A stretch of DNA of 64,000 nucleotides from Parabacteroides sp. Marseille-P3160 (GTDB lineage: Bacteria > Bacteroidota > Bacteroidia > Bacteroidales > Tannerellaceae). This document shows, piece after piece, positions 1 to 52,712 of this stretch. Location: the NCBI RefSeq assembly GCF_900162725.1, contig NZ_LT799418.1:454699-518698 (forward strand), read 5' to 3'. Each line of letters begins with the position of its first letter. Within the stretch, counting starts at the first letter, position 1. Under the pieces are notes generated by a model that was given only the letters and a program-made list of their open reading frames with translations, had not been told where the DNA came from and did not search any database. Position numbers and translations under genes: made by a program.

Positions 1-2206
1 ATTCTCTTCTACACTTAAAATTCCGTTTGAGCTGTTACTAAAGCCAAAGGTACAAACTTTTGAAAGCAAATCACAACCATTAGTTACAAATGATATAGCA
101 ACGGAATGCTGTTACTAAAGCCAAAGGTACAAACTTTTGAAAGCAAATCACAACTGGAGTTCACAAGAACGAATCTGATAAATGCTGTTACTAAAGCCAA
201 AGGTACAAACTTTTGAAAGCAAATCACAACCCATGCCTTTGCATCAATAAGCACCTGATTGCTGTTACTAAAGCCAAAGGTACAAACTTTTGAAAGCAAA
301 TCACAACAGATTAAGAGCATTTATTAAGATACTAATTGCTGTTACTAAAGCCAAAGGTACAAACTTTTGAAAGCAAATCACAACAGATGTTTACCGATAT
401 CCTTACAATTTTATGCTGTTACTAAAGCCAAAGGTACAAACTTTTGAAAGCAAATCACAACCATTATCGCCAATCTCGGTTTCTTCTGATGCTGTTACTA
501 AAGCCAAAGGTACAAACTTTTGAAAGCAAATCACAACCGTCTCCTAGTAGGATGAATTGAAGTATATGCTGTTACTAAAGCCAAAGGTACAAACTTTTGA
601 AAGCAAATCACAACCAGATGGAGACTTGAAAGTAATACCCTTAAGCTGTTACTAAAGCCAAAGGTACAAACTTTTGAAAGCAAATCACAACGTATGTTTA
701 CCGATATCCTTACAATTTTATGCTGTTACTAAAGCCAAAGGTACAAACTTTTGAAAGCAAATCACAACCATTATCGCCAATCTCGGTTTCTTCTGATGCT
801 GTTACTAAAGCCAAAGGTACAAACTTTTGAAAGCAAATCACAACCGTCTCCTAGTAGGATGAATTGAAGTATATGCTGTTACTAAAGCCAAAGGTACAAA
901 CTTTTGAAAGCAAATCACAACCAGATGGAGACTTGAAAGTAATACCCTTAAGCTGTTACTAAAGCCAAAGGTACAAACTTTTGAAAGCAAATCACAACGT
1001 ATGTTTACCGATATCCTTACAATTTTATGCTGTTACTAAAGCCAAAGGTACAAACTTTTGAAAGCAAATCACAACCATTATCGCCAATCTCGGTTTCTTC
1101 TGATGCTGTTACTAAAGCCAAAGGTACAAACTTTTGAAAGCAAATCACAACCGTCTCCTAGTAGGATGAATTGAAGTATATGCTGTTACTAAAGCCAAAG
1201 GTACAAACTTTTGAAAGCAAATCACAACCAGATGGAGACTTGAAAGTAATACCCTTAAGCTGTTACTAAAGCCAAAGGTACAAACTTTTGAAAGCAAATC
1301 ACAACGTATGTTTACCGATATCCTTACAATTTTATGCTGTTACTAAAGCCAAAGGTACAAACTTTTGAAAGCAAATCACAACCATTATCGCCAATCTCGG
1401 TTTCTTCTGATGCTGTTACTAAAGCCAAAGGTACAAACTTTTGAAAGCAAATCACAACGTATGTTTACCGATATCCTTACAATTATATGCTGTTACTAAA
1501 GCCAAAGGTACAAACTTTTGAAAGCAAATCACAACACATATTCCCAAAGACGCTTGGAGGTGGTTGCTGTTACTAAAGCCAAAGGTACAAACTTTTGAAA
1601 GCAAATCACAACACATATTCCCAAAGACGCTTGGAGGTGGTTGCTGTTACTAAAGCCAAAGGTACAAACTTTTGAAAGCAAATCACAACGCAAAGGTCGT
1701 GGCGCAAAAGTGTTGGGAGGCTGTTACTAAAGCCAAAGGTACAAACTTTTGAAAGCAAATCACAACACAGAATCAATCGGAGCTATGTTGCAGCTTGCTG
1801 TTACTAAAGCCAAAGGTACAAACTTTTGAAAGCAAATCACAACTATGCCAGTAGCCTCTTAGGGCATAATAAGGCTGTTACTAAAGCCAAAGGTACAAAC
1901 TTTTGAAAGCAAATCACAACACCGATTGTAGCAAGAACTAAACCAATAGAGCTGTTACTAAAGCCAAAGGTACAAACTTTTGAAAGCAAATCACAACCCT
2001 TATTGGCAGCAACCACTATCCAGCTATGCTGTTGCTAAAGCCAAAGGTACAACTTTTGAAAGCAAATCACAACCAAAGATATGTTCGATATTATTTGGTG
2101 CGAGCTGTTACTAAAGCCAAAGGTACGAACTTTTGAAAGCAAATCACAACTAATAAACACGATTATGAATATACTTGTATGCTGTTACTAAAGCCAAAGG
2201 TACAAA
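1..2206 (-). CRISPR. Type II-C-like CRISPR array, 47-bp repeats (right end)
   Basis: There are 26 identical 47-bp repeats, first at 31-77, last perfect one at 1951-1997. Two variants follow: 2028-2073 (one substitution, one base deleted) and 2104-2150 (one substitution). A truncated copy at 2181-2206 ends the array. Spacers are 29-30 bp. Bases 1-30 are spacer-sized, so the array runs on past the left edge. On the minus strand the repeat begins GTTGTGATTTGC and ends AGTAACAGC, the form and length known from Bacteroidetes type II-C (Cas9) arrays; crRNA is therefore expected from the minus strand. I count 17 distinct spacers in 29 positions. No cas gene or tracrRNA is visible, and I infer they lie to the left. 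Decay at the right end suggests that end is the old, leader-distal one. Confidence 0.97.
385..1488. repeat. Tandemly amplified four-spacer block within the CRISPR array
   Basis: Four spacers (A, B, C, D) with their repeats form a 307-bp unit starting at 385, 692, 999 and 1306. The order is A'-B-C-D, A-B-C-D, A-B-C-D, A-B, then A'' at 1459-1488. Copies of B (462, 769, 1076, 1383), C (538, 845, 1152) and D (615, 922, 1229) are identical. Spacer A' (385-414) differs from A in its first two bases, and A'' differs by one base near its right end. Next to the block, spacer E occurs twice in a row (1536-1565 and 1613-1642). Unequal recombination between repeats is the simplest explanation. Confidence 0.93.
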
Positions 2207-2752
2207 GCAACGGAAAAATGAGGTGTTATCTGTTTCTGCTCCAGTATATTTTGAAGCTCTGGTAAGCCCAGCAAGTATATATACAATAGCCCTTATGCCT
2301 ATAGAAATAGGTGTGAAGCTTCTGTTGCTATCATTCTACTTGTTTTGAATTTATCAGATTCCGAATAAGGATGCTTTTTTGAACGCTTTCGTTTATTTAT
2401 TTCACATAAATCCTTTTTGCATCCGGAAATACTCAAATTGGTTTTTCGACAGTGACAAGTTAATTTTCTCCGGCCAGTCGAAGATCTTTTCATGGTGAGT
2501 CGAAGATCTTCGACCCGCTAGGAAAAGATCTTTTACCCACTGGAAAAAATTAAGCCGAGAAGCGCGAAATCCAGACATATCAGTATGGGGAACAAGGAAA
2601 GAATATATCTCATCGTAAAAATGAATGTTAACTGCCTTAGATAAATAATCTTGATGGCAAAGCATGGCATTGTGATAATCTTTTTGATTTATATTTTGGT
2701 AAATTGGTTGCATAAAGAAAGTAGTTAGGCGGAATATATTTCATATATTTAT
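2207..2752. other. Gene-poor stretch between CRISPR array and sigma factor gene
   Basis: No convincing gene here. Open frames on the minus strand of 64 and 103 codons overlap each other, resemble no family I know, and the longer one reads straight through the palindrome cluster at 2474-2543. Apart from those palindromes I see no RNA gene, transposase remnant or CRISPR anti-repeat. Confidence 0.6.
2474..2543. repeat. Cluster of AAGATCTT-centred palindromes (REP-like)
   Basis: Three copies of an AAGATCTT core sit within 70 bp. The middle one is a perfect 16-bp palindrome, GTCGAAGATCTTCGAC at 2499-2514. The outer copies, GTCGAAGATCTTTTC (2477-2491) and GGAAAAGATCTTTTACCC (2521-2538), form an imperfect larger inverted repeat closed by CCAGT (2474) and ACTGG (2539-2543). 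The arrangement suggests a REP or mobile palindromic element rather than a terminator, since no T-run follows. Confidence 0.7.
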
Positions 2753-2834: not shown

Positions 2835-3422
2835 ATGGAAAAGAATAATTCGATAGACGATCTTTTTAGAAGAATAGCCTTTAGAGATGATGATCTGGCG
2901 TTTAAAGAGCTGTTTTTCAGCTTTTATCCTTCTCTTTGTGTCTTTGCGGGCAGATATATATTCTCCCCTGAAACATGTGAAGATATTGTTCAGGATACGT
3001 TTTTCAAACTCTGGAAAAACCGGAAAACCATTGAAATAACCTCTTCTTTTCGTAATTTCTTGATAACTACAGTGAAGAATAATTGTACGGATTATCTTCG
3101 TAGAGAGTCGGTACAACAGAATTATGTTAGGAAGCAAGCAGCCTCTTCGTTAAATGATGATACGCCGGAAGAAATTTATACTGTTAGAGAATTGGAAGAA
3201 TTACTTCGTATTGCTTTGGAAAAGATGCCGGAAAATGTGCGAGTCGCATTCGAAATGAGTAGACTGAAAAATATGAGTTATACCCAGATTGCCCAGGAGA
3301 TGGCCGTATCTCCAAGAACAGTTGAATCTTATATCAGCAAGGCCTTAACTATATTAAGAGTAGAATTGAAAGACTATTTCCTTCTTCTCCTTCTTCTTTA
3401 TCCTGGATTCTTTAATAATTAA
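2835..3422 (+). CDS. RNA polymerase ECF sigma-70 factor (PUL-associated)
   Basis: A 195-aa ECF sigma factor of the Bacteroidetes PUL type. The sigma-2 region covers roughly residues 20-90 (SPETCEDIVQDTFFKLW, then RNFLITTVKNNCTDYLRR). A sigma-4 helix-turn-helix lies near residues 130-180 (MSYTQIAQEMAVSPRTVES). It is followed by a FecR anti-sigma factor and an STN-carrying SusC, so it should direct RNA polymerase to the SusCD promoter when the receptor senses its ligand. The C terminus is unusually leucine-rich and hydrophobic (YFLLLLLLYPGFF), which may tether it or bind the anti-sigma factor. Confidence 0.93.
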   Translation: MEKNNSIDDLFRRIAFRDDDLAFKELFFSFYPSLCVFAGRYIFSPETCEDIVQDTFFKLWKNRKTIEITSSFRNFLITTVKNNCTDYLRRESVQQNYVRKQAASSLNDDTPEEIYTVRELEELLRIALEKMPENVRVAFEMSRLKNMSYTQIAQEMAVSPRTVESYISKALTILRVELKDYFLLLLLLYPGFFNN

Positions 3423-3515
3423 CAAATATTAACTCGGGGGTTCTTTTTAATCTACGTCAAGTTAATATAAAAAATGAAAAAATACGAGATGCGGTAATTG
3501 TATAAACTTTTTTGT

Positions 3516-4526
3516 ATGGAATTCAACGAGGCGCATATTTTAGCTTATATAAAAGGAGAACTTTCCGAAGATGCTCAAAAAGAATATGATGAACTTCTAC
3601 AAACATCACCTGAATTTCGTATGAAAGTAGAGGAAATCCGATCTTTTTATTCTTTGTCCGAAGACCTGGATAAACAAAGGAATATTGATACTTTGTCTGC
3701 ATGGGAAAAATTGCATCGGAAAATGATGTTTTTTTCTTTTATACAGAGAACAAAGAGTGGGATACAGACCGTTGCAGCGATTGTTTTGCCTCTGTTTCTA
3801 CTTTATCAATATGTTTTAAGGCCCGTATCAGAACCGAAAAATGATGAACTTATAACCCTTTTTTCAGCCCCGGGAGTGATAACAAAGACGATGCTTCCGG
3901 ACGGTAGTGAAGTATGGTTGAATGCACAAAGTGAATTATCATATCCACGCGAATTTATTGGGAAAGAGCGTACGGTAAAACTTTCCGGTGAAGCTTATTT
4001 CAAGGTAGTCTCTGATCGAAAAAATCGTTTTAATGTACTTACGCCTTATAACACGATGATAAGCGCTTTTGGAACGGAGTTTAATGTAAATGCTTATCCG
4101 GAAGAGGAGGATTCCCAGATAACTTTAGCTCGCGGAAAAATTGAAGTGGTTGCGTCTAATTCAGGACAAAAAGAGATGCTTCAGGAAGGACAAAAAATTA
4201 TTTTATCCTCTCAAACAGATAAAATGAAAATAATACCGGCTGATGTTTATGTGGAAACAGCATGGAAAGATGGAAAATTGGTTTTTCGTCGCGAAAAACT
4301 CAGCACGATAGTTAAAAAACTATCTCGTAAATATGGGGCATCCATCCAACTTAGTGGGGAAACCGTAAATGATTATGAATATACGGCAACATTCGCGAAT
4401 GAAACATTGGAAGAGATACTGGATTTGTTGATGCGCTCAGCTCCGATCACCTACTCAATAACGAAACGAGAACAGCTAAGTAATAATACTTTCAGTCAGC
4501 CAATCGTGAAAATTAAGCATAAATAG
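3516..4526 (+). CDS. FecR-family anti-sigma factor
   Basis: Inner-membrane anti-sigma factor expected to hold the upstream ECF sigma factor. N-terminal cytosolic part about residues 1-75, one membrane span near 78-100 (VAAIVLPLFLLYQYV), a FecR domain (LPDGSEVWLNAQSELSYP, then GEAYFKV and FGTEFNVNAY) and a DUF4974-like C-terminal domain (YTATFANETLEEILDLL), which usually docks the STN domain of the receptor. The open frame extends to a TTG at 3498; I prefer the ATG at 3516, giving MEFNEAHILAYIKGEL, the usual N terminus of the family. It starts about 90 bp after the sigma gene. Confidence 0.92.
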   Translation: MEFNEAHILAYIKGELSEDAQKEYDELLQTSPEFRMKVEEIRSFYSLSEDLDKQRNIDTLSAWEKLHRKMMFFSFIQRTKSGIQTVAAIVLPLFLLYQYVLRPVSEPKNDELITLFSAPGVITKTMLPDGSEVWLNAQSELSYPREFIGKERTVKLSGEAYFKVVSDRKNRFNVLTPYNTMISAFGTEFNVNAYPEEEDSQITLARGKIEVVASNSGQKEMLQEGQKIILSSQTDKMKIIPADVYVETAWKDGKLVFRREKLSTIVKKLSRKYGASIQLSGETVNDYEYTATFANETLEEILDLLMRSAPITYSITKREQLSNNTFSQPIVKIKHK

Positions 4527-16406: not shown

Positions 16407-16577
16407 TCAATAGGAGCCCTTGTCTAAGTCTTTAGCCTTTACCTTAAAGATCTGTCCGTTACGTGAAAATACGAGTTCTCCGTTGTCTTTTTTCTTTTCT
16501 TTTACCAGACGTTGAAAAGCAATGCTAGCTCCCTTCACTATACTCTCTTCAAATTCTCTTAGCTCTTGATCATTCAT
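16407..16577 (-). CDS. 56-aa protein coupled to a zeta-like kinase (possible antitoxin)
   Basis: Short gene starting MNDQELREFEESIVKGAS and ending KVKAKDLDKGSY. It has an acidic/amphipathic N-terminal helix, a basic middle (RLVKEKKKDN) and a small beta-rich tail (ELVFSRNGQIFKVKA). Its ATG overlaps the stop of the upstream zeta-like kinase by 8 bp (ATGAATGA), so the two are translationally coupled. Size, charge and coupling fit a toxin/antitoxin pair, but the order (kinase first) is opposite to classical epsilon-zeta and the sequence is not epsilon-like. No named family recognised. Confidence 0.8.
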   Translation of the reverse strand: MNDQELREFEESIVKGASIAFQRLVKEKKKDNGELVFSRNGQIFKVKAKDLDKGSY

Positions 16578-17145
16578 AATGCTCGAGTTTATTATAAATT
16601 ACAGGGTTATAGATTTCTTTTTTTTCATTTTTAAATCCTTTTGCTATCACTTCCATCGGTGATAAAGAGTTGTCCGTAATCATCCAATAGTCGCATACGG
16701 GTAAATAAAGCTCGAATAAGTTACGGATTCCTGCTTTATAGCGCCGACGAATGGTGGCTTCCCCGATATTGTGCCCTCCCTCGGCTACTCGCATTTTTAC
16801 GCGTTCAACTGCTAATTCCGGCGTATTCAACCAGAAATACAGCAGTGTGACGTAATATCCCTTTTTTTGTGCTTCCTTGGCAAGATTCGCTACCGACCGA
16901 GTGGCCAGCGTCGTTTCCAATGCAAAGGTTTTACCTCCCGAGATCAACTCTCTTATCCGCTTATACATGATACGGCTCGCTTCCACTGCAACCGCTATGC
17001 TGTCTGAGTTGAATGGGGACAATCCCTTAGCGATCTCATCGGAATTGACAAACTCTTTACACTTCAGCATTTCTGGCAAGATAGTGTATGAGGCTGTTGT
17101 CTTTCCTGCCCCATTACATCCCGATATAATGTATAAGTACGGCAC
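16570..17145 (-). CDS. Zeta-toxin-like P-loop kinase (COG4185 type)
   Basis: P-loop kinase, 191 aa from the chosen start. Walker A is SGCNGAGKTT, followed by the acidic motif FVNSDEIAKGLSPFN expected to position the substrate, ALETTLATRS, and a C-terminal lid with arginines (IRRRYKAGIRNLFELYLPVCD). Classical zeta toxins phosphorylate UDP-N-acetylglucosamine; whether this branch does is unknown. The open frame reaches ATG 17199, but a promoter at 17165-17196 would start RNA after that point. The GTG at 17145 gives VPYLYIISGCNGAGKTT, the typical N terminus of the family. It is coupled to a 56-aa protein. Confidence 0.87.
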   Translation of the reverse strand: MPYLYIISGCNGAGKTTASYTILPEMLKCKEFVNSDEIAKGLSPFNSDSIAVAVEASRIMYKRIRELISGGKTFALETTLATRSVANLAKEAQKKGYYVTLLYFWLNTPELAVERVKMRVAEGGHNIGEATIRRRYKAGIRNLFELYLPVCDYWMITDNSLSPMEVIAKGFKNEKKEIYNPVIYNKLEHYE

Positions 17146-17164
17146 TACTCTTATTTTATCACGG

Positions 17165-17196
17165 CAAATATATGCATATTTGTTTAATATACGCAA
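17165..17196 (-). promoter_or_regulatory. Promoter of the zeta-like kinase operon
   Basis: On the minus strand, TTG (17196-17194), 21 bp, then TATATTTG (17172-17165), a perfect Bacteroidetes -7 box. It lies inside the longer open frame and decides the start codon in favour of GTG 17145. Confidence 0.7.
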
Positions 17197-17279
17197 CATT
17201 TTATGATGTAATAAAATATAAAATGTTTGTTTTGCGCGGGGTTACGTCATTCAAACGGGGTGTTTTGTACAAAAACGAA

Positions 17280-52681: not shown

Positions 52682-52712
52682 TTGTGGAAAGAAGAAGCTA
52701 ATTCTACTTTTG
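52682..52712 (+). promoter_or_regulatory. Promoter of the TonB siderophore receptor gene
   Basis: TTG (52682-52684), 20 bp, then TACTTTTG (52705-52712), a perfect -7 box, 36 bp before ATG 52748. No obvious Fur-type palindrome was seen over it. Confidence 0.65.

Follow-up and report, generated by a model that had tools for sequence, protein, structure and literature searches.

Bacteroidales type II-C CRISPR repeats probably carry an internal promoter box of the sigma-ABfr type

In the type II-C CRISPR system of C. jejuni, each repeat contains a promoter from which transcription begins at position 5 of the spacer (PMC3656092). Repeat-internal promoters in the type II-C system of N. meningitidis are credited to Zhang et al. 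2013, as cited in PMC7038990, while for C. cellulolyticum they have the status of a proposal (PMC7038990). In C. jejuni and N. meningitidis the promoter is a sigma70-type extended -10 element occupying the final 8-9 nt of a repeat of 36 bp. In Flavobacterium, which belongs to the same phylum as the DNA analysed here, a TTG located 33-35 bp before each spacer has been proposed as a repeat-encoded promoter of II-C arrays, both in F. columnare (Hoikkala et al., PMC8092290) and in F. psychrophilum (PMC10309648), with support from low-depth or bulk RNA-seq and some within-array transcription. These papers name only the TTG within the repeat, which is 36 bp long in F. columnare, and the F. psychrophilum paper names TAnnTTTG for the cas9 promoter only. 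Riemerella anatipestifer CRISPR1 has a 47-bp II-C repeat like the one described below, along with a 16-nt anti-repeat and a cas2-side leader (PMC5006608, PMC6008519) at which new spacers are added (PMC6008519); the absence of a promoter from its 47-bp repeats was reported after a generic promoter predictor had been run on the leader (PMC5006608). A survey of B. fragilis found no assignable leader in II-C (PMC5704556). Bacteroides sigma-ABfr gene promoters are composed of a -7 element, TAnnTTTG, whose centre lies at -7, and a -33 element, TTTG, and in B. thetaiotaomicron dRNA-seq the motif precedes 81% of primary starts (PMC7366714); strain VPI-5482 of that species is without an annotated CRISPR (PMC7366714). 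Within the open-licence PubMed Central literature, we found no description of TAnnTTTG inside II-C repeats. The finding reported here is a better-specified variant of the known II-C design rather than a new kind, and it is partly anticipated in the Flavobacterium papers.

The window, a stretch of 64,000 nucleotides from Parabacteroides sp. Marseille-P3160 (genome G000, C5:454699-518698), opens with the leader-distal (old) end of a type II-C CRISPR array (31-2206, crRNA sense on the minus strand), in which 29 copies of a 47-bp repeat are separated by spacers of 29-30 bp. The array extends leftward past the window edge; it comprises at least 130 repeats in all, from C5:444520 to a truncated copy whose last base is C5:456904. 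To its left, on the minus strand, lie cas9, cas1 and cas2; profile matches above cut-off (TIGR01865, 426 bits; TIGR03639, 306.6; TIGR01573, 74.5) show Cas9, a type II Cas1 and Cas2 to be encoded together, and an ORF reading for csn2 or cas4 found no same-strand ORF of at least 120 aa after cas2 before the opposite-strand ORFs begin. A tracrRNA gene (about L003:4306-4450, plus strand) is located between cas9 and the array, its anti-repeat AAATTTTTGAAAGCAAATCACAAT lying upstream of cas9 and being followed by a hairpin with a T-run, as found by folding. The system is of type II-C (cas9-cas1-cas2 plus tracrRNA). It shares with those of C. jejuni and N. meningitidis this gene content, a putative promoter in the 3' part of the repeat and the addition of spacers at the end towards which transcription would run; it differs in that the candidate box, TAnnTTTG, lies 13-17 nt before the end of a 45-49-bp repeat and in that the predicted start falls before the spacer.

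In crRNA sense, the repeat reads GTTGTGATTTGCTTTCAAAAGTTTGTACCTTTGGCTTTAGTAACAGC (typical copy at 31-77, minus strand). Its positions 26-33 are formed by TACCTTTG (45-52, minus strand), a candidate sigma-ABfr -7 box of the form TAnnTTTG that lies outside the tracrRNA pairing, and its positions 2-4 by a TTG (74-76, minus strand) which, at a distance of N21, is a candidate -33 element and which also falls within the tracrRNA-pairing and repeat-end sequence. The start is predicted in the 3' tail of the repeat (31-44, minus strand), at about repeat position 36-40 (window about 38-42). An earlier note on this DNA had assigned TTG-N21-TACCTTTG to every repeat. On the minus strand 27 of the 29 copies do carry it exactly, and a degenerate copy (2028-2073, minus strand), which has lost one linker base, keeps the box intact with N20, as the note had said, bringing the count to 28 of 29; the last copy has the box only. 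This truncated 5'-terminal ('extra') repeat (2181-2206, minus strand) retains positions 22-47 with the -7 box and has lost positions 1-21, including the TTG and the tracrRNA-pairing part, and it shows no TTG at N18-21 from TACCTTTG. A further copy (2104-2150, minus strand) has one linker substitution before an intact box. Dinucleotide shuffles of the window gave 1.1 matches per window (largest 5), compared with the 29 found, but an array built from a single repeated unit has to be scored as one occurrence. Since a shuffled 3' part of a long repeat has a chance of about 1.6% (1.82/116) of containing the motif, the motif by itself is modest evidence, and it is the comparison across repeats that is decisive, not the count in the window. 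The same geometry had been claimed for two gene promoters, and both motifs exist. TTG-N20-TACTTTTG (52682-52712, plus strand), 36 bp before the ATG (52748) of a TonB-dependent receptor gene, is likely the promoter of that gene, whereas TTG-N21-TATATTTG (17165-17196, minus strand), outside the array, lies across the start of the ORF at 16570-17199 (minus strand) in its longest form and could serve as a promoter only with a start codon further inside that gene.

Loci were gathered from the phylum, class and order with Cas9 as an unbiased anchor, 80 named loci were included in addition, and arrays were located and oriented by script. Long-repeat II-C arrays occur, for example, in Bacteroides faecis MAJ27 (L265) and B. 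fluxus YIT 12057 (L263). The II-C repeats in this collection are of two kinds, 36 bp and 45-49 bp long. TTG-N18..22-TAnnTTTG occurs in 62 of 116 unique long repeats (44 of 93 without near-duplicates), compared with a mean of 1.8 and a maximum of 7 in 2000 shuffles of the 3' parts of these 116, and within Bacteroidales the strict motif is present in 35 of 44 dereplicated 45-49-bp repeats. It was absent from the reverse strand of all 116 long repeats, from all 18 short (36-bp) II-C repeats and from all 11 Bacteroidales type I-C repeats, the last being a GC-rich control set. In the Bacteroidales long repeats TAnnTTTG is a conserved 8-mer island between variable stretches: the columns of the box carry 1.49 (T), 1.69 (A), 0.86 (n), 1.07 (n), 2.00 (T), 1.84 (T), 1.32 (T) and 1.34 (G) bits, the two columns before it 0.17-0.29 bits and those after it 0.02-0.80 bits. 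The peak of conservation thus consists of exactly the six bases that a promoter specifies, with the n positions lower.

This pattern is narrower than the design for Bacteroidetes in general that had been envisaged, as the strict box is missing from the 36-bp repeats and, in Flavobacteriales, from most of the long ones. The named Flavobacteriales long repeats are TAnnTTTA-like (near-match in 14 of 15 when dereplicated, strict match in none), and one Capnocytophaga repeat variant (L245) has the strict box. Flavobacteriales genes and several tracrRNAs (L234, L244, L247, L270) use TAnnTTTG despite the TAnnTTTA of the repeats, which would therefore be either weaker promoters or a motif serving something else. 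Near-matches to the box were also seen at positions 23-30 of three 36-bp repeats (L097, L102, L226), as TATCTTAG, TACCTTAG or TAATTTAG. In L233 (Ignavibacteria UBA2360), a long II-C repeat without TAnnTTTG ends in TGATACAAT, which is like an extended sigma70 -10 and resembles the repeat-end -10 of N. meningitidis and C. cellulolyticum; this is possibly a host-specific switch of promoter type, although the sample from other classes (14 kb) was too small for a co-variation of repeat box and sigma type to be upheld. Viral contigs were considered as a further source of repeat-internal promoters, but only five Cas9 loci turned up in them.

We then compared the box with the segment of the repeat that pairs with tracrRNA. 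In the Parabacteroides locus the crRNA-tracrRNA duplex formed with AAATTTTTGAAAGCAAATCACAAT takes up repeat positions 2 to about 22 and does not include TACCTTTG. At loci with a true anti-repeat, pairing ends between the start of the box and its third base (+3), leaving CTTTG unpaired, and so pairing fails to explain the TTTG; the exceptions are for the most part degenerate copies of the repeat itself, situated on the crRNA strand. Conservation of the boxes beyond what tracrRNA pairing demands, a check that the earlier note had proposed, is accordingly seen for the -7 box, which is far above chance and outside the paired segment, but not for the TTG, which is inside it. The TTG is inseparable both from this pairing and from the terminal GTTG of the repeat, and on these grounds the idea of an independently conserved -33 element was rejected.

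The tracrRNA genes served as a positive control for the host promoter box. In 47 of 94 loci the 60 nt ahead of the anti-repeat contain TAnnTTTG, against an expectation of 0.024 per locus; between the end of this box and the anti-repeat (L092-L307) there are 0-7 nt, mostly 2-5, and the TTG is mostly at N20, so that in half of the loci the tracrRNA seems to start with the anti-repeat itself. In the regions upstream of Bacteroidales genes the sense strand has 2.7 times as many TAnnTTTG sites as the antisense strand, and TTG-Nk-TAnnTTTG peaks at N18-20 (12, 30 and 45 sense occurrences against 3, 13 and 9 antisense), while N21, with 5 sense and 1 antisense, is at background. The Bacteroidales repeats thus have the same two elements as sigma-ABfr gene promoters, and most of them, with N18 or N19, match the host peak. 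The Parabacteroides repeat does contain the -7 element, but its N21 fits poorly, and since its TTG coincides with the GTTG end common to these repeats, it is not the perfect promoter that it had been taken for. It differs from the Bacteroides gene promoters (PMC7366714) in being embedded in a CRISPR repeat, in this spacing and in its nn, which is mostly TC in these repeats. As a candidate for a favoured host promoter core, TATCTTTG was dropped when more loci gave 34 of 287 in sense and 6 of 72 in antisense (P 0.53).

The orientation of the arrays was assessed in 93 cases with both ends inside the locus. The more degenerate terminal repeat is at the crRNA-sense 5' end in 70, at the 3' end in 6 and equal in 17, with means of 6.75 mismatches in 5'-terminal copies (a figure that includes some spurious alignments) and 1.05 in 3'-terminal copies. 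This implies that new spacers enter on the 3' side, which is also where R. anatipestifer adds them (PMC6008519), and that the 5' side is without a leader; judged by the strand that pairs with tracrRNA, transcription would then run from old to new spacers. In the 500 nt before the first repeat, leaving aside leftover boxes in truncated repeats, promoter-like sites occur at 0.20-0.43 per kb according to the interval, close to the antisense background of about 0.25. A crRNA-sense 5' end made up of the oldest repeats, together with the lack of an excess of external promoters, is what repeat-internal promoters predict. 'Extra' repeats are known to lose their 5' part, and provision of a promoter for the first spacer has been proposed as a reason for their retention (PMC12080349). 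We selected the terminal copies that carry two or more changes within positions 1-17, 35 in all, and aligned them from the 3' end. In this set 51% of positions 1-17 have changed, yet 31 copies retain an intact box, and no more than 12 still have a TTG at N17-22. The comparison was set aside as a proof that selection acts on the box by itself, because the tail after the box is kept equally well (1.9% of positions changed, against 2.4% in the box), and it supports retention of the 3' half only. A selection test on internal repeats had no power: 1311 inner repeats yielded 19 distinct mutations, most of them in one decaying array.

Bacteroidales II-C repeats therefore have a composition for which repeat-internal sigma-ABfr promoters are the probable explanation. 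The main rival is that the box is a recognition or ruler motif for integration by Cas1-Cas2, or is simply inherited, its likeness to the sigma-ABfr -7 element being coincidental. We regard this as rather unlikely, but several observations speak for it. The distance from the box to the repeat 3' end (sd 0.88; 16 nt in 36 of 49) is slightly steadier than the spacing between TTG and box (sd 1.15), and the Flavobacteriales box differs under the same host consensus. Furthermore, nn is TC in 39 of 49 Bacteroidales repeats against 34 of 287 host promoter sites, a fixation beyond the need of a promoter which indicates that descent or another constraint acts too. On the other hand, the distance to the end still ranges from 13 to 17 nt, and it is the six promoter-specified bases that are most conserved, nn being less so. 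The box is also kept in leader-distal terminal copies, which are no longer used in integration, and the region upstream of the arrays is not enriched in external promoters.

That same upstream region bears on a second rival, in which readthrough or a non-canonical outside promoter produces one long pre-crRNA and the repeat boxes play a minor part. The suboptimal N21 of the Parabacteroides repeat and the frequent loss of the TTG from terminal copies fit such a reading, which we nevertheless consider improbable: in crRNA sense the upstream side is the old, unconserved end, its density of promoters is near the antisense background, and in F. columnare eight reads represent within-array transcripts directed toward the leader (PMC8092290). 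That the whole motif is a product of chance in an AT-rich repeat is very hard to believe, for although about 1.6% of shuffles give it in a single long repeat and the array is one repeated element, its presence in 35 of 44 diverged Bacteroidales repeats, its strand specificity and the column pattern contradict this.

We thus favour, as a likely account when taken as a whole, that these II-C repeats double as weak sigma-ABfr promoters whose transcripts start before the spacer, with no leader promoter needed. Polymerase use of the box, the position of the start and RNA processing are what we infer here from sequences, conservation, pairing limits, polarity and spacing statistics. Each 47-bp repeat would be a weak promoter recognised by sigma-ABfr, the housekeeping sigma factor of Bacteroidales, with the TAnnTTTG immediately 3' of the tracrRNA-pairing segment as its -7 box and the TTG of the GTTG start as a facultative -33 element. 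From the distance between tracrRNA boxes and anti-repeats and from the published -7 centre (PMC7366714), transcription is predicted to start about 4-7 nt past the box, some 8-12 nt before the spacer. The transcript would then cross the spacer and enter the following repeat, and its 3' end would be formed there through tracrRNA pairing and RNase III, on the model of the II-C systems already known. With spacers added at the 3' end of the array, each crRNA would have its own promoter, making a leader promoter unnecessary. The last repeat of the Parabacteroides array reads in the direction of cas9, and between the two lies a perfect hairpin with A- and T-run flanks (L003:4410-4450; -23.8 kcal/mol, z -9.2), which could terminate both the plus-strand tracrRNA and the minus-strand array transcripts, the latter ahead of cas9.

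With the start predicted at this position, compared with spacer position 5 in C. jejuni (PMC3656092), it does not follow that crRNAs are made without 5' processing, as had been supposed. A bolder extension, which is possible but towards which we do not lean, is that the repeat-internal promoter was rebuilt in Bacteroidales II-C systems to suit the sigma factor of these bacteria; the need to place the box outside the duplex would have stretched the repeat to 45-49 bp and shifted the start to a point before the spacer, and the crRNAs would bear a repeat-derived 5' tag that has to be trimmed or tolerated, a third biogenesis route beside the leader-driven and start-in-spacer ones. If the account holds, repeat-internal crRNA promoters would be a general II-C trait that is rewritten for each sigma factor, crRNAs with a repeat-derived 5' end would be expected, and a reason for the 45-49-bp repeat length would suggest itself; the published claim that a 47-bp Bacteroidota repeat has no promoter would be contradicted. 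Duplication of a repeat-spacer unit would, moreover, amount to duplication of a transcription unit, which bears on the array described here, where one spacer is present 32 times.

This spacer, ATATAATTGTAAGGATATCGGTAAACATAC, has 31 of its 32 copies in one tandem run and no match in the phage collection, and its repetition could be a real amplification of crRNA dosage or an assembly effect. Between C5:444520 and C5:456848, the right end of which corresponds to window 31-2206, there are 129 spacers, 62 of them distinct, and further blocks of 3-4 units recur 3-5 times. A run of 2291 N bases within the array (L005:171-2461) is flanked by the same sequence as the window start, so that the array may be larger or hold masked content. 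Among the 2898 spacers (2841 unique) of long-repeat arrays, the number of unique spacers containing TAnnTTTG is 22 for the crRNA strand and 46 for the opposite one, compared with 34 and 36 in shuffled spacers; selection against promoters in spacers or a strand bias of protospacers are possible reasons for this skew. Upstream of the 5' end of the array, the minus strand has a stable hairpin without a clear T-run (window 2440-2560; -47.4 kcal/mol, z -5.8), which perhaps insulates the array. Beside the array end (window 2835-4526), sequence reading assigns genes for an ECF-type sigma factor and a FecR-like anti-sigma factor, followed by a SusC-like receptor.
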